Shown here piece by piece: positions 15,832-28,490 of a DNA stretch of 40,515 nt. A program made the position numbers and the translations under genes. The stretch's first letter is position 1, and every line of letters starts with the position of its first letter. This DNA is from Deltaproteobacteria bacterium (GTDB taxonomy: Bacteria; Myxococcota_A; Polyangia; Polyangiales; Houyiibacteriaceae). Location: assembly GCA_013151775.1 (NCBI GenBank), contig JAADHO010000374.1, forward strand, positions 1-40,515, read 5' to 3'. The notes under the pieces were generated by a model. That model did no database searches, was not told where the DNA came from, and saw nothing but the letters and a program-made list of their open reading frames with translations.

Positions 15832-16527
15832 TCAGGACGTCGGCTGAGTCGGCTCGCCGCTGCGCAGGCTGCCGTCCGAGAGCGAGCTGTCCTCGCTCCC
15901 GATGGCGTCTTGCGACGGGTTGTTGGGCTGGGGCGTCGGGTCCACATCCGGCGCCGCGTCGTCGGGCGCCACGTCGGGCATGAGGTCCGCGCTGTCGTTG
16001 GTCTGGTGGCTGGGGTCGTCGATGGCGTTCACGCCGCCCTGGTGCGCGACCAAGTTCGGCTGGGGTGTGGGGTCCCAGCCCATGTCGATGGCCTCTCGCC
16101 GCGCGACGTTGGACAGCTCTGGATCCTGGAGCGTCGCCAGGTAGCCGAGCCACAGACGGTCGGCTTCATCCGTGAGCTCGGAGTCCGTGAGCTCGGACTC
16201 CAGCGCCGGGTAGGTGTCGGCACAGATGATCGCGCCGCTGGGATCGAGGGCCACCACGAGATCGGGCTCACCCTCGGCGACCCCGAACCCCGCCGCCTCG
16301 AGGTTGCGCCCCTCGCAACCCGCGGGTGCCGTCACCCAGGCGTCGTGCGGGATGGTCGGCAGCGCCTCGGCGTTGGCCACGTCCAGGCTGTCGAAGCGGC
16401 CCGCCGTGTCGGGCGCCTCGGCTGCGCAGCCCATGGCGCTGAGGAGCAAGACGAGGGGCAGGAGCGTGGTCGCGCGTGGCCGCCCTGCACGTGTCGTAGG
16501 TGCGCGTGTTGCCGTGGAGAGAGTCAT
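15832..16527 (-). CDS. Small lipoprotein coupled to the sigma-54 activator
   Basis: 231 residues. The ATG at 16527 overlaps the stop of the large regulator (ATGA, 16524-16527), which fixes the start. The N-terminus is an Arg-rich stretch, a hydrophobic core and a lipobox ending LLSAMGC, giving a mature lipoprotein from about Cys34. The mature protein is acidic and low in complexity toward the C-terminus, with a duplicated SELTD-SELTD (two near-identical 15-bp units at about 16170-16200) and two DPTPQPN copies. Two further Cys (AGCEG, IICAD) could pair. No known domain. Coupling to a signalling regulator suggests it could be a sensor partner or an output of that regulator; this is inference. 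Confidence 0.8.
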   Translation of the reverse strand: MTLSTATRAPTTRAGRPRATTLLPLVLLLSAMGCAAEAPDTAGRFDSLDVANAEALPTIPHDAWVTAPAGCEGRNLEAAGFGVAEGEPDLVVALDPSGAIICADTYPALESELTDSELTDEADRLWLGYLATLQDPELSNVARREAIDMGWDPTPQPNLVAHQGGVNAIDDPSHQTNDSADLMPDVAPDDAAPDVDPTPQPNNPSQDAIGSEDSSLSDGSLRSGEPTQPTS

Positions 16528-19500
16528 GAGGTCCTCTTCGACGAACCCTCGAGGAGTCCGTATTGCTTGACGAGTTGCGAGAGCCGCGGCCGCTTCATTC
16601 CGAGCAGGCCCGCGGCTCGAGTGATGTTGCCGTCGGTCTCGGCGATGGCGCGCACGATGCAGTCGCGCTCGAGGGTTTTCTTCATCTCGAGCAGCGACAA
16701 CTCTCCACCGCGTACGCGTGTGTAGAGCAGCTCCTCGAGGGCTGCGGGCGGCGCGCTGGGTGCGGCCTCGGTGAAGGCGGGGGTGAAGGTCGAGGCGAAG
16801 GCCTCGAGGTGGGCGGGCTGCAAGGTCGGCGCGTCGGAGAAGAGGGTCGCGCTGCGCAAGACGTTCTCCAGCTCGCGCACGTTGCCAGGCCAGGCGTGGG
16901 TCGCGAGTAGCCGGACGCTGTCGGCCGAGAGGCGCTTGGGGGAGTCCCCGCGCTCCCGGGCGATGCGCGCGAGCAGGTGCTCCGAGAGCTCGGCGAGGTC
17001 GTCCAAGCGCTGGCGCAGAGGAGGCACCTCGATCATCACGCCGCGCAGCCGGTAGTAGAGGTCCTCACGGAAGCTACCCTCGCGCACCATGGCCTCGAGG
17101 TCGCGGTGCGTGGCGGTGACGATGCGCACGTCCACCTCGACCGCTTGGGTCCCGCCGACGCGCTCGAAGCGACGCTCCTGCAAGACGCGCAAGAGCGCCA
17201 CCTGGGTCTTGGGCGAGATGTCGCCGATCTCGTCCAGGAAGATGGTGCCGCCGTCGGCGAGCTCGAAGCGGCCCTTCTTGCGGCTGGTGGCTCCCGTGAA
17301 GGCGCCCCGCTCGTGACCGAAGAGTTCACTGAGCAGCAAGGTCTCGACCAAGGCCGCGCAGTTCACCTTGACCATGGGGCGCGTTCGGCGCGACGAGTGC
17401 CGGTGCAGCGCCTCGGCGACCAGCTCCTTGCCCGTGCCGCTCTCGCCGCGGATCAGCACCATGGCGTCCGTCGGCGCCACCTTCTCGAGCATGCTCGAGA
17501 CGTGGACCATGCAGCTGGAGGAGCCCACGAGGTCGGGGAAGAGCTGACGGAGTCGGCGGCCCTCCGCGTCGCCCGCGCCCTGCGTCGGTGGGCGGCTCGG
17601 CCGGCGACTGGGGTGCATCCCCTCGGGGTTTCGGCCCGACTCGAGGCGCGCGTCGAGCTCGGCCAGCAGCTCGCGCACAGGTCGCTGGGCCCAGGCGCTC
17701 TGCGCTACCTCCGGGACCAGGGCCGTGAGCTCGTCGTCCACCTCGTAGGCGCGGTCGAGGTCTCGCGCCGCGGCGCCGACGTCGCCTTCGTCGAGGTGCG
17801 CTCGGCAGCGATGCAGCAGGGCGGGCAAGAGCCGCTGAGGATCTCGAGCGGCTTCGGCCAGGGTGCAGGCGCGGCGTGCGGCGGATAGGGGAGGTCGGCC
17901 CGCGGCTCGATCGAGCTCCGCGCCGATCAGAGCCAGCTCCGCGCGACGCTTCGGGGTCAGCTCCTCGTGGGCCAGGGCGGCTACGCGAGCCTCCGCGTCG
18001 GACACGCGGCCCTCGGCCAAGCAGACGCGGATCAGCGCTAGGGCGGCGTCCACGCGACGCTCCTCGCCGATGGCCTCGAAGGTGGAGAGGGCGGCCTCGA
18101 AGGCGCCGCGCGCCTCGGTCAACTCGTGCTCGGCGAGGTCGACCCGGCCACGCAGGAGCAGGCCCTCCGCCCTCACGGTGGGGCTGAGGTGGATGCCGCC
18201 CATGTGGGTGGCGAAGTCGCACAGGGAGCGAGCCCGCGTCCGGTCTCCGAGGCTGAGGTAGAGTTCGCCCAGGTTGTTGGCGACCCGCGCGAGCATGCCG
18301 CGGTTGCCCAGGCGCTTCAGCTGGGTGATGGCCTCGTGGTAGTGGTGCAGGGCCGCGGTCGCGTCACGCCTGAGGTGCGCGAGCACGGCGAGGTTTTCCG
18401 TCGCGATGGCGTGGTCGCGGGTGTCGCCCGCCTGGGCGGCGACGCGGATGGCGTCCTCGAAGGTCTCCCGCGCGCCCTCGAAGTCCTGGCGCCGGAGCAT
18501 CGCCACGCCGAGGTTGGTCAGCGCCTGGGCCTCCGCGTGCTCGAGGCCGTGGGCCTGGGCCACCGCGCGGTTCTGCTCGAAGTACTCTGCCGCGGCGCTG
18601 GCGTCCCGTCGGGCCAGGGCGACCTTCCCGAGGGTGTTGCGCGCGTGCACGGCCAGGGCGAGGTCCTCGCCCGCCGCCTGAAGCGCCGCCTGGGCGCAGA
18701 TCACGCCCTCGTCGTAGGCCGCGCGCTGGTAGTGGAGTTCGGCGAGCAGGGCCTCGGCTTGGGCGCCCTCGCGTGCGTCGTCTGCCCGTGCGGCCAGCCG
18801 CCTCGCCTCTTCGAGGCTGCGCGTCGCCTCGGCCAGCTGCCCCGCCTGCGTGAGCAGGTCACCCAAGCGTCGGGCGGCGCTCGAGGAGTCGGGTTCGCGT
18901 GCTCGCAGCGCCTTGGCGTGCTCTAGGGCGCGGGGATAGTCGCCGGCCATGCGGTGCAGCTCGGCGAGCTCTGCGAGCAGGTCCTCGTCGCTGTCGGCGA
19001 GCAGGTCGCTCGGCAGCTCTTCGAGCAGCGCCGCCGCCTCTCCGTGAGCGTGGCGTGCCGCCAAGGAGCGCGCCGCCACGATGGTCAGGGGTAGCGCTCG
19101 TTCGACGTTTCCGGCCAACAGGGCGTGGCGAGCGGCCTGTTCACAGTGGGCGCGTTGGTCGAAGGCGCCGGCTACGCCTCGCTCCACGTCGAGACTGCCG
19201 GCGAAGTGGTCGGCGAAGCGCGAGTGCAGCCCGCGGCGTCGCTCTGCGTCGATCAGGCCGTAGGCGCGCTCGCGCTCGTTGTCGCGGGCGAAGCTCAGCA
19301 AGATGCGTCCGTCCAGGACCTCCGTGAGCACCAGGGGCGAGCCGCGGAGCGCGCTCATGGCCGCCGCGTCGGGCCGCTGCTCCGATACCCGGGCCAGGGT
19401 GTCGAGGTCACCCGAATGCCCCAGCACGGCCAGGGCTTCGAGCAGCCCTCGAGCTGACGCGGGGAGCTCCGCCAGGCGCCGCCCGAGGCTCTCTTCGGGG

Positions 19501-20564
19501 GTCAGGGGGCGCGCCTGGAGCAGCAGGTCGAGGCGCTCGGGCACGCCGTCGGTGCGCTCGAGGACCTGGGCGATGGCCTCGGGGCTCTGCAGGTAGGCGC
19601 GCACGCCCTCGGCGTCCAGCGGGCCCAGCTCCAGGGTGCCGCCCGAGGGGTGGCTGAGCAGCTCGGACCAGGCGGCGGTCTCGTCCGTGAGGATGGAGCG
19701 ACAGGAGGCGACGAAGAGCGCGCCCGGCCGCGGCCGGCTCGAGTCGCCAAGGGGCTGGCCCCAGCCGGCGCCGTCGAGCAGATGGGCCAGGAGCCTCGAG
19801 GTGCCCGCGTCCGCGCGGTCGAGATCGTGCAGCAGCACCAAGGGCGCGCGCACGTCCGAGACCTCATGGAGCAAGGCGGCGATGGCGTCGAAGAAGCGCA
19901 TGCGGCGCTCCATGACCTTGGCCGGACCGAAGCGGCCGCCGTCCGTGGGCAGTCCCTCGGCGGCGCCGTCGAGGGCTCCCTCGTGCTGGTACCAGAAGGG
20001 GTGACAGCCCTCACGGCAGGCGAGGTCCGAGAGGTCCACCTGAGGGGCCGCGCCGACATCCGTCAGGAAGCGCAGGGCACGCTCGACGATGGAGGCGAAG
20101 GCGCCAAAGGGGCGGCCGGGTTCGGCGCGGCCCTCGAGCACCGGGCAACCCTCGAGGCGCAGCCTGCGCCCGAGCTCACTCAGCACGCGCGACTTGCCGG
20201 CGCCCGCGTCCCCGTGCACCAGAGTCAACAGCGATCCGCCCTCACGCGTGCGGTCGTAGGAGTCGAGCAGCGTCGCCAACTCCGACTCTCGGCCCACACA
20301 GATGGGGGCGCCAGGCACTGGCATTCGAGCTCCCGGCGCGGCGCTCGGCCGGATGCAGGTCCGCCGTCCGGGCGGCTCGGAGGCGCAAGAGAGCCCTTCG
20401 CCGGCCTCGGCGCCGTTCGAGCCAATCTCGGGTAGGGGTCGTATCAAAAGCAGCCTGTTCGGCACCCCAGCCTCGGGGCGCTCGATCCGTGCAGCGTAGA
20501 ACGCCGCAGGGGCGGCGGCAAGTGCCCCGGCGAATTCCGCTTGCTGTGAGTCGACCCCTGACAT
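16524..20564 (-). CDS. Giant sigma-54 enhancer-binding protein: NTPase - TPR - AAA+ (GAFTGA) - Fis HTH
   Basis: 1346 residues from ATG 20564, which has GGAG 4 bases upstream and lies 10 bp after the predicted start of a sigma-54 promoter. ATG 20324 (MPVPGAPICVGRE, GGGAG upstream) is an alternative, because residues 1-80 show atypical codon use and no domain. The first NTPase (Walker A GDAGAGKS, 118-125) is of the AAA_16/STAND-like kind seen in large signal integrators. A long TPR-rich region follows, about 450-960. The sigma-54 AAA+ module has Walker A GESGTGKE at 1040-1047, the sigma-54 contact loop GAFTGA at 1087-1092, Walker B FLDEIGD and the arginine-finger region. The end (about 1302-1340) is a Fis-type HTH (GNITRAAGLLGMKRPRLSQL). 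It should activate sigma-54 promoters when the NTPase/TPR part senses a protein or ligand. It is followed by a coupled lipoprotein gene. Confidence 0.92.
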   Translation of the reverse strand: MSGVDSQQAEFAGALAAAPAAFYAARIERPEAGVPNRLLLIRPLPEIGSNGAEAGEGLSCASEPPGRRTCIRPSAAPGARMPVPGAPICVGRESELATLLDSYDRTREGGSLLTLVHGDAGAGKSRVLSELGRRLRLEGCPVLEGRAEPGRPFGAFASIVERALRFLTDVGAAPQVDLSDLACREGCHPFWYQHEGALDGAAEGLPTDGGRFGPAKVMERRMRFFDAIAALLHEVSDVRAPLVLLHDLDRADAGTSRLLAHLLDGAGWGQPLGDSSRPRPGALFVASCRSILTDETAAWSELLSHPSGGTLELGPLDAEGVRAYLQSPEAIAQVLERTDGVPERLDLLLQARPLTPEESLGRRLAELPASARGLLEALAVLGHSGDLDTLARVSEQRPDAAAMSALRGSPLVLTEVLDGRILLSFARDNERERAYGLIDAERRRGLHSRFADHFAGSLDVERGVAGAFDQRAHCEQAARHALLAGNVERALPLTIVAARSLAARHAHGEAAALLEELPSDLLADSDEDLLAELAELHRMAGDYPRALEHAKALRAREPDSSSAARRLGDLLTQAGQLAEATRSLEEARRLAARADDAREGAQAEALLAELHYQRAAYDEGVICAQAALQAAGEDLALAVHARNTLGKVALARRDASAAAEYFEQNRAVAQAHGLEHAEAQALTNLGVAMLRRQDFEGARETFEDAIRVAAQAGDTRDHAIATENLAVLAHLRRDATAALHHYHEAITQLKRLGNRGMLARVANNLGELYLSLGDRTRARSLCDFATHMGGIHLSPTVRAEGLLLRGRVDLAEHELTEARGAFEAALSTFEAIGEERRVDAALALIRVCLAEGRVSDAEARVAALAHEELTPKRRAELALIGAELDRAAGRPPLSAARRACTLAEAARDPQRLLPALLHRCRAHLDEGDVGAAARDLDRAYEVDDELTALVPEVAQSAWAQRPVRELLAELDARLESGRNPEGMHPSRRPSRPPTQGAGDAEGRRLRQLFPDLVGSSSCMVHVSSMLEKVAPTDAMVLIRGESGTGKELVAEALHRHSSRRTRPMVKVNCAALVETLLLSELFGHERGAFTGATSRKKGRFELADGGTIFLDEIGDISPKTQVALLRVLQERRFERVGGTQAVEVDVRIVTATHRDLEAMVREGSFREDLYYRLRGVMIEVPPLRQRLDDLAELSEHLLARIARERGDSPKRLSADSVRLLATHAWPGNVRELENVLRSATLFSDAPTLQPAHLEAFASTFTPAFTEAAPSAPPAALEELLYTRVRGGELSLLEMKKTLERDCIVRAIAETDGNITRAAGLLGMKRPRLSQLVKQYGLLEGSSKRTS

Positions 20565-20584
20565 GGTTCTCCACAGAGTAACTT

Positions 20585-20600
20585 AGCAAATTGGGTGCCA
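20585..20600 (-). promoter_or_regulatory. Sigma-54 (-24/-12) promoter
   Basis: On the minus strand the sequence is TGGCAC-N5-TTGCT, a full match to the sigma-54 consensus, with the GG and GC dinucleotides 10 bases apart. The predicted start of transcription is near 20574, giving a leader of about 10 nt with GGAG before ATG 20564. It drives the sigma-54 activator gene itself, implying autoactivation or a cascade. Confidence 0.82.
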
Positions 20601-20696
20601 CTCTTTGGCGCGTGTTCTTCGGAGGTCTACAGGTGCTCTCCGGCGCGGCGTGCGTGGCGCGCGCCCGCGCGTGCAGATTTTGACGCTGCCGGCGAA

Positions 20697-22088
20697 TCAA
20701 CGACGATACTCTTCCACGTCGATGGCGTAGCGCTTGATCCAGCGATGGATCTGCATGCGCGCCTTGCCCAGCTCGCGCCCGGCGGCCGCGATGTTGCCCG
20801 CGTGCCGGGCCAGCAGCTCCCTCAGCGCCTGCTCCGTGGGCGCCTCCCGCGGCTCGGCTGGTGAGTCCCGAGGCGGGCCGGATCGACGCTCGCCGTGTCC
20901 ATCCAGGGAGCGGCGGACGCTGGGAGGCAGGTCGGGGAGATCCAGGGGTCTCGGCCCGGCCAGCGCCTGGGCCACTCGCACGGCGCTCTCGAGCTCGCGT
21001 ACGTTGTAGGGCCAGTCGTGGTGCGCCAGGGCCAGCATGAAGGGCAGGCTAGGGTCCTGAGTGGCCCCGCCCGAGGCCGCCTGGAAATGGCGCACCAGGG
21101 CGCGTCGATGTCGCAGGGGAGGCAGCGTCACGGAAAACTCGCGCAGGCGCGCCAGCAGGTCTCCTCGGAAGCGGCCGGCGGCCACCTCGGCGTCGAGGTC
21201 GCGGTGGGTGGCGCTGACCACACGCACGTCGATGGGCTCCGGACGCGTACCTCCCAGGGGCAGCACCTCACGCTCTTGAAGCACGCGCAGCAGCTTCGCC
21301 TGCGCGCCCACGGGCATGTCGCCCACCTCATCGAGGAAGAGGGTCCCGCCGTGGGCCGCGCGCAGCAGGCCGGGGCGATCCGCGTTGGCGCCCGTGAAGG
21401 CGCCCCGCCGCACGCCGAAGAGCTCGCTCTCGATCAGCGTCTCGGGCAGCGCGGCGCAGTTGATGGCCGAGAGCGGACCGGCTCTGCCGCTGGTCGTGTG
21501 GGCGAATCGCGCGATCAGCTCCTTGCCCGTCCCGGTCTCTCCGGAGATCAAGATCGAGACCGGCTTGCAGGCCACCTTCTCGAGATCGACCAGCAGCTTG
21601 TCGATGGCGTAGCCTCCGACCAAGTAGGAGGGCTTCGCTCGCGGGTGACACGCCTGCGCTGCGGCCACCACGCGCCCTCCCGGGGCGTAGGCGGCGAAGC
21701 GGTAGACGCCCTCGGCGGTGAAGCGGAAGACGCTGTCGCCGATGCGCACCACGTCGTGGTTGGCGAGGCGCACCCTGTCGACCCGTGCGCCGTTGACGAG
21801 CGTGCCGTTGGTGGAGCCCAGATCCTCGATCCAGTAGCCGTCCTCGCGGCGCTCGACGCGTGTGTGGTGTCGTGAGACCGCGGCCTCGGGGATGGGTAGT
21901 GTGTTGTCCGACTCGCGTCCCACGCTGGTGTGTCGCGCGGCGAAGGGCACGATCGAGGGCAGGCTCCGGTGCAGGCGCGAGTAGATCAGCACCAAGCCGG
22001 CGGTGGGATCGGCCGCCGAGAGCGCCAAGGGCAGCGCCTCCACGGACGCCGTGGTCACGCCGACGGGACCCTCGTCAGGCTCCGCCAT
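20697..22088 (-). CDS. FHA-domain sigma-54-dependent transcriptional activator
   Basis: 463 residues from ATG 22088. GGAG lies 9 bases upstream of this start and directly abuts the alternative ATG 22097. The FHA domain (about 35-125) has the phosphothreonine-binding signature TSVGRESDN...SRHH...IEDLGSTNGT. The AAA+ sigma-54 module has Walker A GETGTGKE at 183-190, GAFTGA at 229-234 and Walker B LFLDEVGD. The C-terminal HTH (LLARHAGNIAAAGRELGKAR, then MQIHRWIKRYAID) binds DNA. The FHA domain should read the Thr phosphorylation of a partner, usually from a Ser/Thr kinase, and switch on sigma-54 promoters. Such FHA-type activators are characteristic of myxobacteria. It lies between the hybrid kinase and the giant activator on the same strand. 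Confidence 0.94.
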   Translation of the reverse strand: MAEPDEGPVGVTTASVEALPLALSAADPTAGLVLIYSRLHRSLPSIVPFAARHTSVGRESDNTLPIPEAAVSRHHTRVERREDGYWIEDLGSTNGTLVNGARVDRVRLANHDVVRIGDSVFRFTAEGVYRFAAYAPGGRVVAAAQACHPRAKPSYLVGGYAIDKLLVDLEKVACKPVSILISGETGTGKELIARFAHTTSGRAGPLSAINCAALPETLIESELFGVRRGAFTGANADRPGLLRAAHGGTLFLDEVGDMPVGAQAKLLRVLQEREVLPLGGTRPEPIDVRVVSATHRDLDAEVAAGRFRGDLLARLREFSVTLPPLRHRRALVRHFQAASGGATQDPSLPFMLALAHHDWPYNVRELESAVRVAQALAGPRPLDLPDLPPSVRRSLDGHGERRSGPPRDSPAEPREAPTEQALRELLARHAGNIAAAGRELGKARMQIHRWIKRYAIDVEEYRR

Positions 22089-22180
22089 GGTTGCCATCTC
22101 CGGTCGGGCGCATGGCAGCAGCCTAACGGATCCGGCGCCCGTGGTCTGCTCTTCGCTGCGGCCGCGGGAGAGGGGAAGCG

Positions 22181-23272
22181 TCAGGTCTGCAGCATGCGCA
22201 GCGCCGTGGCCACCAGGTCGTCGGGCTCGAAGGGCTTGCGCAACCAAGCGTCGGGGCGGAAGCGCGCGCCAGGAGGCATGGAGGTCTGCCCCGACATGCA
22301 CACGACTCGCTCCGCGAGCCTCGCGAGGCGCAGACGCTCGGCGAGCTCGAGGCCTGAGCCGTCTCCGAGGGTCAGGTCCACGAAGGCGAGATCCCAGGGG
22401 CCCTCCGCATCGTTCACCTGCGCGACGGAGCCGGCCTCTGTGCAGCGCGCACCCCGTCGCGACAGCGCCGTGACCAGCATGCGCCTCAGCGCGTCGTCGT
22501 CGTCTACCACCAGCAGCTTGGTGTTCGGCAGCCGCCCGCTGCCCGCCGGCAGAAAGGCCTCTCGCTCGATCACGCCGCTCTGGTGCAGCACGCGGGCGGG
22601 GCGCTCGAGGCGGGGAATCGCGACCTCCACGCGCGCACCTCCACCCACGGCGTCGTGCAGCGCGATCGTGCCACCCAGCTTGCTCGTCAGCTCCCGCACG
22701 CGCGAGAGCCCCAGGCCACGGCCTCCCGGTCGGCGACTGAAGCCCGGCTCGAAGGCGCGCTGCTTGACCAGGGCGTCCATGCCTGGACCGGCGTCCACGA
22801 CCGAGATGCCCAGCCCCGCGTCCTGCGACCTGAGCTGAACGCGGACGCGCGTGCCCTCGGCGGAGAGGGCCACTGCGTTGTGGGCCAGATTCCACAGGAT
22901 GCTGAAGCAGGCCCCCTCGGGCAGGCTGGGGAGCTCACCGCCCGTGGCCTCGACCTCGATCGAGACGTGCCGTTCGGCGGCCATGGGCCGGAGCAGCTGC
23001 GCGACCTGCTGCGCCAGCTCGAGGGGATCAGCCCAGGTGTCGGAGCGGCCACCGAGCAGTCTCTGGGTGAGCCTCGCGGCCGTCGCGGCGCTCTCGCGGA
23101 TCAGCCGCAGGGCTGGCTCCCGCTCCGCGTGCGTCGAGAGGGCGAGCTCGGCCCAGCCCGCGATGGCCGTGAGCGCGCCGGCGATGTCGTGAAGCACGCC
23201 TCGGGTGAGCGCTTCGCCGCCCGAATACTCGGCGTCTTGGCTGTCGTCCATCCGTGGTGCGTTCGGTTCCAT
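22181..23272 (-). CDS. Soluble hybrid: histidine kinase with C-terminal receiver domain
   Basis: 363 residues from ATG 23272, with AGAGGG 4 bases upstream; ATG 23302 is possible. No membrane segment. The dimerisation helix carries H28 in GVLHDIAGALTAIAGW, an HD rather than HE phospho-acceptor box. The ATPase domain shows an N box (ILWNLAHNAVALS), DAGPGM and GGRGLGLSRVREL. The C-terminal receiver domain (about 248-363) has the acidic pair in LLVVDDDD, phospho-acceptor D299 (FVDLTLGDG) and the conserved Lys at 346 (LRKPFEP). It may autophosphorylate and pass phosphate to its own receiver. The neighbouring sigma-54 activators have no receiver domain, so its downstream partner is unclear. The 93-bp gap to the FHA activator gene makes cotranscription likely. 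Confidence 0.88.
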   Translation of the reverse strand: MEPNAPRMDDSQDAEYSGGEALTRGVLHDIAGALTAIAGWAELALSTHAEREPALRLIRESAATAARLTQRLLGGRSDTWADPLELAQQVAQLLRPMAAERHVSIEVEATGGELPSLPEGACFSILWNLAHNAVALSAEGTRVRVQLRSQDAGLGISVVDAGPGMDALVKQRAFEPGFSRRPGGRGLGLSRVRELTSKLGGTIALHDAVGGGARVEVAIPRLERPARVLHQSGVIEREAFLPAGSGRLPNTKLLVVDDDDALRRMLVTALSRRGARCTEAGSVAQVNDAEGPWDLAFVDLTLGDGSGLELAERLRLARLAERVVCMSGQTSMPPGARFRPDAWLRKPFEPDDLVATALRMLQT

Positions 23273-23464
23273 GCGCCCTCTAGACAGCGAACATACTGCC
23301 ATATTCCGCCACGGTCAAAGCTCGCCTGGCGTCTTGGTGGCTCGATTCCGGGGTTCACGAGCGCCGCGTGTGGCTCGTGTGTTGGCGCACGGAGCCAGGG
23401 ATGATAACCATGTAACGTGTCTGCGCACGCCTCCGCGCATCTCCTCAGGATGGGCCGTCTCACC

Positions 23465-26122: not shown

Positions 26123-27229
26123 ATGACCACCGCCCCCGAGCTCTCGCGCGCGCCTCTGTCTGGCGCCCCCTACTTCGCCGTCGAGTACGAGCCCGAGACG
26201 GGTGAGGTGGTGATGCTCGATCAGCGGCTCTTGCCCGCCGAGGTGGTCTATCATCGCCTGTCGACGCCCGATCAGGTGGCCGACGGAATCCGCGACATGA
26301 TCGTGCGCGGCGCGCCAGCCATCGGCGTCACGGCGGCCTACGCCTTGGTGCAGCTCGCGCGCACGCAAGACGGCGACGCCAAGAGCTTCTTGCTCGCCAA
26401 CGGCGCCGCCTCGCGCGTGCTCGACGCCACGCGTCCCACGGCCGTGAACCTCGCTTGGGCCATCGCCCGCATGTCACGCCGCGCCGCCGAGGTCGCCGCC
26501 CTCGCGCCCGTCGAGCGCTATCGGGCCATGCGCACCGAGGCCGAGGCGATTCACCGCGAGGACGTGGCGGCCTGTCGCGAGATGGGCCGGCTCGGCGCCC
26601 TCGACGTACCCGACGGCGCGACCATCCTCACCCACTGCAACGCGGGCGCCTTGGCGACGGGCGGCTACGGCTCGGCCCTCGGGGTGATCCGCGCCGCCGT
26701 GGAGGCGGGCAAGCGCGTGAAGGTGCTGGCCGACGAGACGCGACCCTACCTGCAGGGCGCGCGGCTGACCGCCTGGGAGCTTTTTCAGGACGGCATCGAC
26801 GTGGAGGTGATCACCGACAGCATGGCGGGGCATTTCTTCCAAAAAGGCGAGATCGACTTCGTCATCGTGGGCAGCGATCGGATCGCCAGGAACGGCGACG
26901 TGGCGAACAAGATCGGCACCTATGGCGTGGCCGTCTTGGCGCACGCCCACGACGTGCCCTTCGGCGTGGCGGCGCCCTTCAGCACCGTCGACATGGCCAT
27001 GCCAACGGGCGAGGGCATCCCCATCGAGCAGCGCTCGCGCGAGGAGGTCGCCCGGGTGGGTGATCGCCTGCTGGTGGCCGACGGGATCCCCTGCCGACAC
27101 CCCGCCTTCGACGTGACCCCCGCGCGCCTGGTGGACGCCATCTACACCGAGCGGGGCGTCGTGCGCCCGGCCCAGGGCGAGACCCTCGAGCTGCTCGCGG
27201 CTGATGCGCGGGGGCCCAGGGCTCGCTAG
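26123..27229 (+). CDS. mtnA: S-methyl-5-thioribose-1-phosphate isomerase
   Basis: 368 residues from ATG 26123, in line with the family (about 350). It isomerises 5-methylthioribose-1-phosphate to 5-methylthioribulose-1-phosphate in the methionine salvage pathway. Diagnostic motifs are [12 protein letters not shown] (62-73), the catalytic Cys172 in [14 protein letters not shown], and the catalytic Asp252 in [19 protein letters not shown]. The start sits after a 90-bp divergent gap; no recognisable SAM-type riboswitch is there. The 3' end overlaps the following FHA/transglutaminase gene by 26 bp if that gene starts at 27204. No other methionine-salvage genes are visible nearby. Confidence 0.96.
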
Positions 27230-28490
27230 ACTGGGACTGGAGGATTCCCTGGTCGCGCCTCGCGCTATTGTAATTGGTCGCTCCCGTGACTGTGATCTCG
27301 TCTACGGCGAGGCCACCGTCTCTGGCCACCACGCGCGCCTCGTCTGGCGTGGGCGCGCCCTGTGGATCGAAGACCTGGGCAGCGCCAACGGCACCCTAGT
27401 GCACGGCAAGCGCATTCGACGTGAGAGGATTCGCCCAGGCGACGAGGTGCTCCTGGGTCAGGCGCCCCTGCCTTGGTCGCGTCCCGAGCTGCGGCCCTTC
27501 CTGCGCGCGGGCGCCGGCGGAGACACCGTCGACGCCCTGTCCATCCCCGGGCGTCGCTTCATCTGTGGTTCGTGCGGCGTGCGCGGTGTCATGCCCTCGG
27601 GGTTTGCTGGCGGCGAGCTGAGCTGCGGCTCCTGCGGGGAGCAGCTGCGCGTGGGTCCGCCTCGGCGTCGGGGACGCTCGGGGTTCGCGCTGGCGCTGCT
27701 GGTGTTGCTGGTGGGCGGCGGTGTGACGCTCTGGGCCACCCGTGGCTTCGAGCGCGTGCGCGCGGTTCGGGAGGCGGTGAGAGCCCTGGGCGAGCGAGCC
27801 GGAGAGCAGGTCGGGACCGGAGCCGCGAGCCCCCAGGAGGCGTCCATTCGCGCCCACAGCAGCGACGCGGTGGTGGCGGCCTGGGATTCCACGACGCCGC
27901 TCACGCGCAACACGGCCGTGCAGTTCGCCGCGGGCGATCAGGGCCCCTACCACGTGGAGCAGGTCGCCCGGATCTGGAACGAGGTGCGCGGGCGCTGGCA
28001 CTACGTCAACGACCCTCGCGGTCAGGAATATTTCGCCCGCGCCAGCGAGAGCATCGCCAACGACTACGCCGGCGACTGCGACGACTTCGCCATCGTGCTC
28101 GCCGCCATGATCACCGCCATCGGAGGCGAGTCACGCGTGGTGATGATGGACGGCCCGGGCGGCGGCCACGCCTACACGGAGGCCTGCATTCGCGACGATC
28201 CCGACGCCGTGCGAGACCGACTCGCGACCTACTACCGAGACCACCGCGACGATCGCCTCGGCCGTCAGCGCCTGCGGGAGATCCACTACCGGCCCTCCGA
28301 GTCCTGTCCGGTCTGGCTGAACCTCGACTGGAACGCGGGCGTCCCCGGCGGAGACTACGAGGCCGAGGCCTGGGCCGTGGCCATCCACGCGGACGGCAGC
28401 ACGGAGACCTTGGCCCCCGCCGGCTTGCCCCCGAACATGGGTCACGCCACCGGGGCCATCCCCGAGTCTGCGTCTCCGGCGTCGCCCTGA
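27204..28490 (+). CDS. FHA - zinc ribbon - transmembrane - transglutaminase-like protein
   Basis: 428 residues if started at ATG 27204, inside the mtnA end. A GGAGG at 27239-27243 lies 5 bases before an in-frame CTG (27249), a possible rarer start. Residues 20-70 are an FHA domain ([23 protein letters not shown]). Residues 119-147 hold a Cys4 zinc ribbon (C121, C124, C141, C144). Residues 160-178 are a single transmembrane helix. The external part (about 235-420) is transglutaminase/cysteine-protease-like, with Cys292 in [13 protein letters not shown] and His322 in GGGHAY. FHA and ribbon would be cytoplasmic and the enzyme domain periplasmic, so the protein links phospho-dependent binding to an envelope enzyme. 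It may form an operon with the next three genes. Confidence 0.88.

Follow-up and report, generated by a model that had tools for sequence, protein, structure and literature searches.

In Myxococcus xanthus the activator Nla28, a two-component regulator encoded by nla28S-nla28, takes part in its own regulation; binding sites have been mapped in its own promoter region, and it recognizes tandem 8-bp repeats with the sequence CT(C/G)CG(C/G)AG (PMC9765219). Enhancers of the NifA/FhlA type have the form TGT-N10-ACA (PMC2820453, PMC6615313). For DVU1949 of Desulfovibrio vulgaris, autoregulation was proposed because a conserved motif precedes the operon to which it belongs (PMC4641369). The RRNPPA systems Rap-Phr, PlcR-PapR, and NprR-NprX belong to the Bacillota; in these systems the gene for a Sec-exported precursor comes right after that for the TPR regulator, some precursors are processed as lipoproteins, and they may hold repeated peptides (PMC9765709, PMC11343458). 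Here we analyzed a myxobacterial window, that is, the whole stretch of 40,515 nucleotides under study, and tested conservation within one family (34 genomes) and in three relatives outside it. We consider it probable that a two-gene operon in this window is read from a sigma-54 promoter and is raised by its own first product, an NTPase-TPR activator, via an upstream enhancer. The genes concerned are as follows.

16524 to 20564, minus strand: gene for an activator of 1346 amino acids with AAA_16 NTPase (Pfam PF13191), TPR (TPR families), sigma-54 AAA+ with GAFTGA (PF00158, E=5e-71), and Fis HTH (PF02954) domains
15832 to 16527, minus strand: gene for a small lipoprotein with the lipobox-like LLSAMGC, predicted second gene of the operon, with a 4-nt ATGA overlap with the activator stop
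20697 to 22097, minus strand: gene for an activator of 466 amino acids (from the ATG at 22097) with FHA (PF00498), sigma-54 AAA+ (PF00158), and HTH domains, upstream and co-directional

With its GAFTGA-bearing sigma-54 AAA+ domain and Fis-type HTH, the product of the first gene is a sigma-54 activator (bacterial enhancer-binding protein), and the NTPase-TPR-GAFTGA-Fis order given in the initial annotation was recovered by Pfam and motif searches. The domain motifs are kept in all orthologs, among which the HTH sequence GMKRPRLSQLVKQ(Y/H)GL is nearly invariant. With the NifA family model (NCBIfam TIGR01817) the activator scored 361 bits, below the cut-off of 529. A later start of the protein, for example Met80, was considered and not adopted: the 5' region is open in G004, a genome of the same genus, with conserved stretches, yet third-position GC is weaker there, so that the N-terminus given here is tentative. 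Just upstream of the FHA activator gene and on the same strand, a histidine-kinase/receiver hybrid gene occupies window positions 22181 to 23302 and may share a transcript with it. Farther away, window positions 27204 to 28490 encode a fusion of an FHA domain with a transglutaminase-like domain, and genes for an M48 peptidase and a dynamin-like GTPase come after it on the same strand.

The predicted promoter lies directly before the NTPase-TPR activator gene.

20585 to 20600, minus strand: sigma-54 -24/-12 promoter core TGGCACCCAATTTGCT, a perfect core match conserved in G004
20574, minus strand: predicted transcription start (+1), placed 12 nt downstream of the -12 C by sigma-54 promoter geometry
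20569 to 20572, minus strand: GGAG, Shine-Dalgarno-like, inside the predicted leader

The TGGCAC-N5-TTGCT box described in the initial annotation is indeed present at 20600 to 20585. It agrees with TGGCAC-N5-TTGCW at 11 of 11 core positions, with GG at 20599-20598 and GC at 20587-20586 in the minus-strand reading and with correct spacing, and it is the only match without mismatch found by a scan of the window. The extended sigma-54 consensus is YTGGCACG, and the box departs from it at both flanks, with a G before and a C after, so the term full consensus used earlier holds for the core positions and not for the flanks. The GGAG between box and ATG also stands, and the distance had to be corrected from 21 to 20 nt, the ATG being at 20564. 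From the -12 GC, +1 is placed at about 20574, which predicts a leader of 10 nt in the activator mRNA. Matches with up to two mismatches numbered 19 in the window versus 14.5 in shuffles; as there was no excess of weaker matches, only the perfect match in the window is informative. In G004 the box is retained as TGGCATCCAAATTGCT. A short leader was at first taken as an argument against the promoter, which we dropped, as most of the sigma-54 boxes examined predict leaders of 0 to 30 nt. At many sigma-54 boxes of the family (L144-L148, L151, L097, L007, L004, L006) the predicted leaders are only 1 to 6 nt, which would give near-leaderless mRNAs, and before two vWA-like lipoprotein genes (G007 and G008) a GGAGG lies even upstream of the predicted +1.

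The box could have arisen by chance, with the gene being read by read-through from the FHA activator gene or from an unseen sigma-70 promoter. From base composition alone (G+C about 69%), three to four perfect matches per genome are estimated, and the FHA gene lies on the same strand, separated by a gap of 132 bp that has no terminator on that strand. However, the perfect boxes mostly stand next to gene starts. The source genome (G000, 6.05 Mb) has eight perfect TGGCAC-N5-TTGCW matches, compared with three for the reversed pattern, and at least six of the eight are followed directly, in sense orientation, by a coding start (the activator, flgB, and four others); the placement of the remaining two, L002 and L003, is unclear. 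A perfect box in this genome is therefore usually a promoter. Moreover, both the box and the enhancer described below are conserved, and no sigma-70-like site was found in 20500 to 20760, so that a chance box is scarcely credible. The genome has one rpoN-type (sigma-54) gene, with a single PF04552 match (E=1e-65). Several genes behind perfect boxes encode proteins with signal-peptide-like starts. The box before flgB (L007:1501-1922), whose product scores over the cut-off of the FlgB model, suggests that a flagellar operon may be under sigma-54 control in the source organism.

The initial annotation had pointed to 20600 to 20900 as the place for upstream enhancer sites, and one candidate was found there.

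20670 to 20685, minus strand: candidate enhancer (UAS) CGTCAAAATCTGCACG with the core CGT-N10-ACG, conserved before orthologs and before vWA lipoprotein genes

Counted from the -24 box, the element starts 85 bp farther upstream; its distance from the predicted +1 is about 103 bp. When the intergenic regions of G000 and G004 were aligned, only two conserved islands appeared, the box and a block beginning with CGTCAAAATCTGCACG. In most other genera the 16-bp element also precedes the activator with at most one mismatch in 11 positions, against an expectation of about 0.01 per region, which is optimistic because the element was first recognized by eye in several of the regions tested. In the regions upstream of the activator, shared 4+4 gapped words counted without guidance were no more frequent than in shuffles; the motif came from aligned conserved blocks and was afterwards tested by scanning. 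We scanned the 34 genomes for the element with GGC-N7-TTGC 40 to 70 bp after it and obtained six matches, against none in reversed controls. Four of these precede the NTPase-TPR activator (G000, G004, G003, and G033), and the other two (G007 and G008) combine CGTCACGAAATGCACG with a perfect box and immediately precede orthologous genes for vWA-like lipoproteins, which are unlinked to the activator. Of 15 sigma-54-like boxes of related genomes, a set that includes a weak box of the G008 activator region chosen after the motif and genomes that share descent, 13 have CGT-N10-ACG within 110 bp; the same half sites at spacers of 4 to 9 and 11 to 16 occur at 0 to 3 of the 15, and 4.6% of background windows contain the motif. 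When each gene is counted once in each genus, the motif is present in 9 of 11 (P about 5e-11). The distances between enhancer and box range from 54 to 99 bp and place most pairs on the same face of the helix (Rayleigh p=0.003 at 10.5 bp). The sigma-54 promoter for the NTPase-TPR activator gene is well supported as a prediction, because of the perfect match, its position, its conservation in the sister species, and an enhancer conserved at a constrained distance. The box, the conservation of the enhancer, the operon overlap, and the domain content can all be read directly from the DNA.

Orthologs of the NTPase-TPR activator were found in 11 of the 34 family genomes, and the enhancer-box arrangement varies among them. 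The boxes are imperfect in G003, G032, G033, and G002 and weak in G008, where the box was noticed after its motif. The activators of G007 and G010 have neither box nor enhancer upstream, and in G001 an enhancer-like site with one mismatch precedes the activator without a box; the circuit is thus not universal, and these upstream regions indicate that it is evolutionarily labile. By eye, a sigma-70-like TTGAAn-N17-TAnnCT is discernible before the activator in several genomes.

The initial annotation had offered two options, positive autoregulation or a cascade from the neighboring FHA activator, and co-occurrence favors the first and makes the second less likely. In a cascade, the FHA activator would bind the enhancer upon a Ser/Thr kinase signal and switch on the NTPase activator operon. 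Cascades from one activator to the next are established for Myxococcus (PMC9765219). Most genomes that encode the NTPase-TPR activator have the two genes side by side and in the same direction, and the FHA activator is present wherever the NTPase-TPR activator occurs. The reverse does not hold: in genus g5 (G005 and G006) the FHA activator is present but the NTPase activator, the vWA gene, and the enhancer-box pair are absent. In G008 the enhancer still precedes the NTPase activator although the FHA gene is unlinked, on another contig, and in G007, where the two activator genes are in tandem, no enhancer lies between them. We regard the cascade as unlikely. The FHA activator was also considered as a target of the enhancer-box circuit and rejected, since no sigma-54 box precedes it in 13 genomes. 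Positive autoregulation appears likelier, because the enhancer and the vWA lipoprotein track the NTPase-TPR activator and not the FHA activator and because of the arrangement in G008; the argument is correlative, its g5 part resting on one genus. We infer that the enhancer is bound by the NTPase-TPR activator rather than by the FHA activator and that the feedback is positive.

It is also conceivable that both activators work on the promoter, as mixed oligomers or as two inputs, or that an unrelated activator binds at the enhancer. The genome holds many sigma-54 activator candidates (98 to 104 at first look), and mixed activator oligomers are reportedly found in myxobacteria, to judge by the title of Volz et al. 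2012 (cited in PMC6971385). Nevertheless, the NTPase activator, tracked by the enhancer and the vWA gene, accounts for the data alone, and we think such a shared or foreign control very unlikely.

If autoregulation is correct, the activator would bind CGT-N10-ACG about 103 bp upstream of +1 via its Fis-type HTH, and a DNA loop would bring its GAFTGA loops to the closed RNA polymerase-sigma-54 complex, which would be opened by ATP hydrolysis by the activator. Once its NTPase/TPR sensor is engaged, the activator would thereby increase the amounts of both itself and the lipoprotein. The activator of related genera would also act on the unlinked vWA-like lipoprotein gene, via the same enhancer and box. 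Homologs of this lipoprotein (L140, L141, L144-L151), which has no Pfam match and carries a DxSxS motif, VDIIWVFDSSGSM, occur only in genomes that have the NTPase activator, except for one weak match in G012. The full-strength homologs in G011, G003, G032, G033, and G002 each come with a box, perfect or nearly so, and an enhancer is recognizable at most of them. In G000 and G004 the only homolog is diverged and has no box, and a search for a second target in G000 found none, leaving the activator operon as the one target identified in the source genus. The initial annotation was right in its observation and underestimated its importance, as promoter, enhancer, and a second conserved target together define a small predicted regulon.

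The partner lipoprotein carries two short proline-rich repeats.

16054 to 16074, minus strand: first DPTPQPN repeat of the lipoprotein
15922 to 15942, minus strand: second DPTPQPN repeat of the lipoprotein

A small lipoprotein gene follows the activator in 19 of 19 relatives (10 orthologs, 6 paralogs, and 3 outside the family), with the 4-nt ATGA overlap in all pairs except that of G001 (+10), and the same arrangement was found in none of 22 unrelated sigma-54 activator loci. Short Pro repeats occur in most partner lipoproteins and differ in sequence from one subfamily to the next: two copies of DPTPQPN in G000, five of GDPHPQPSRP in G001 and five of GDPHPVPMD(R) in its paralog, a single GDPSPDPM near the lipoprotein C-terminus with the shorter TPR-only paralogs, and an IPTPQP-like repeat in two relatives outside the family. 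The shuffle probabilities of the repeats are mostly 0.000 to 0.06, that of L011 not being significant. Each of the paralogous TPR-sigma-54 activators (L100, L101, L102, L104, and L105) has an ATGA-overlapping lipoprotein with its own GDPxPxP motif, and at least two of these paralogs, of about 800 amino acids, have no NTPase domain. Possibly, activator and overlapping lipoprotein form a receptor-signal pair, in which the Pro-rich repeats would be set free as peptides or exposed as a ligand sensed by the TPR region and the self-activating sigma-54 promoter would constitute an auto-induction loop; we consider this rather doubtful. A conserved CEGR...CVD domain is common to the paralog and ortholog lipoproteins and speaks against their being mere carriers of a peptide. 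The structure of the TPR region is predicted with confidence (pLDDT 91.6), and its listed profile and fold matches include LGN/Pins, kinesin light chain, designed TPRs, MalT, and OGT; no RRNPPA receptor is among them. The predicted region resembles general peptide-binding TPR superhelices rather than RRNPPA receptors.

A single consensus match has in this way led to a testable circuit, with a box, an enhancer, a likely activator, a two-gene operon, and a second target across uncultured myxobacterial genera, and it links little-studied sigma-54 activators with NTPase-TPR input to two surface lipoprotein families. An autoregulated sigma-54 activator is a known kind of circuit; the enhancer, the sensor architecture, and the lipoprotein partners make the present one a new form of it. 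As with Nla28, a sigma-54 activator gene of a myxobacterium appears to be involved in its own regulation, here judged from sequence only, but the sensor is of the NTPase-TPR type and the enhancer is an inverted CGT-N10-ACG. The element is built like the NifA/FhlA enhancers, from two inverted half sites of 3 bp that are separated by 10 bp and lie about 100 bp upstream of +1, whereas its half site is CGT instead of TGT and the activator scores too low for the NifA family. The locus resembles DVU1949 in that autoregulation is proposed from a conserved upstream motif, and it differs in operon content and lineage. As in the RRNPPA systems, the gene for a TPR regulator is directly followed by one for a predicted lipoprotein with repeats, a candidate precursor; here, however, the output is a sigma-54 AAA+ domain, and the lipoprotein is larger and has a conserved domain. 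The fixed pairing of TPR activator and repeat lipoprotein raises the question of whether RRNPPA-like peptide sensing, with a sigma-54 output, may exist in a Gram-negative bacterium.
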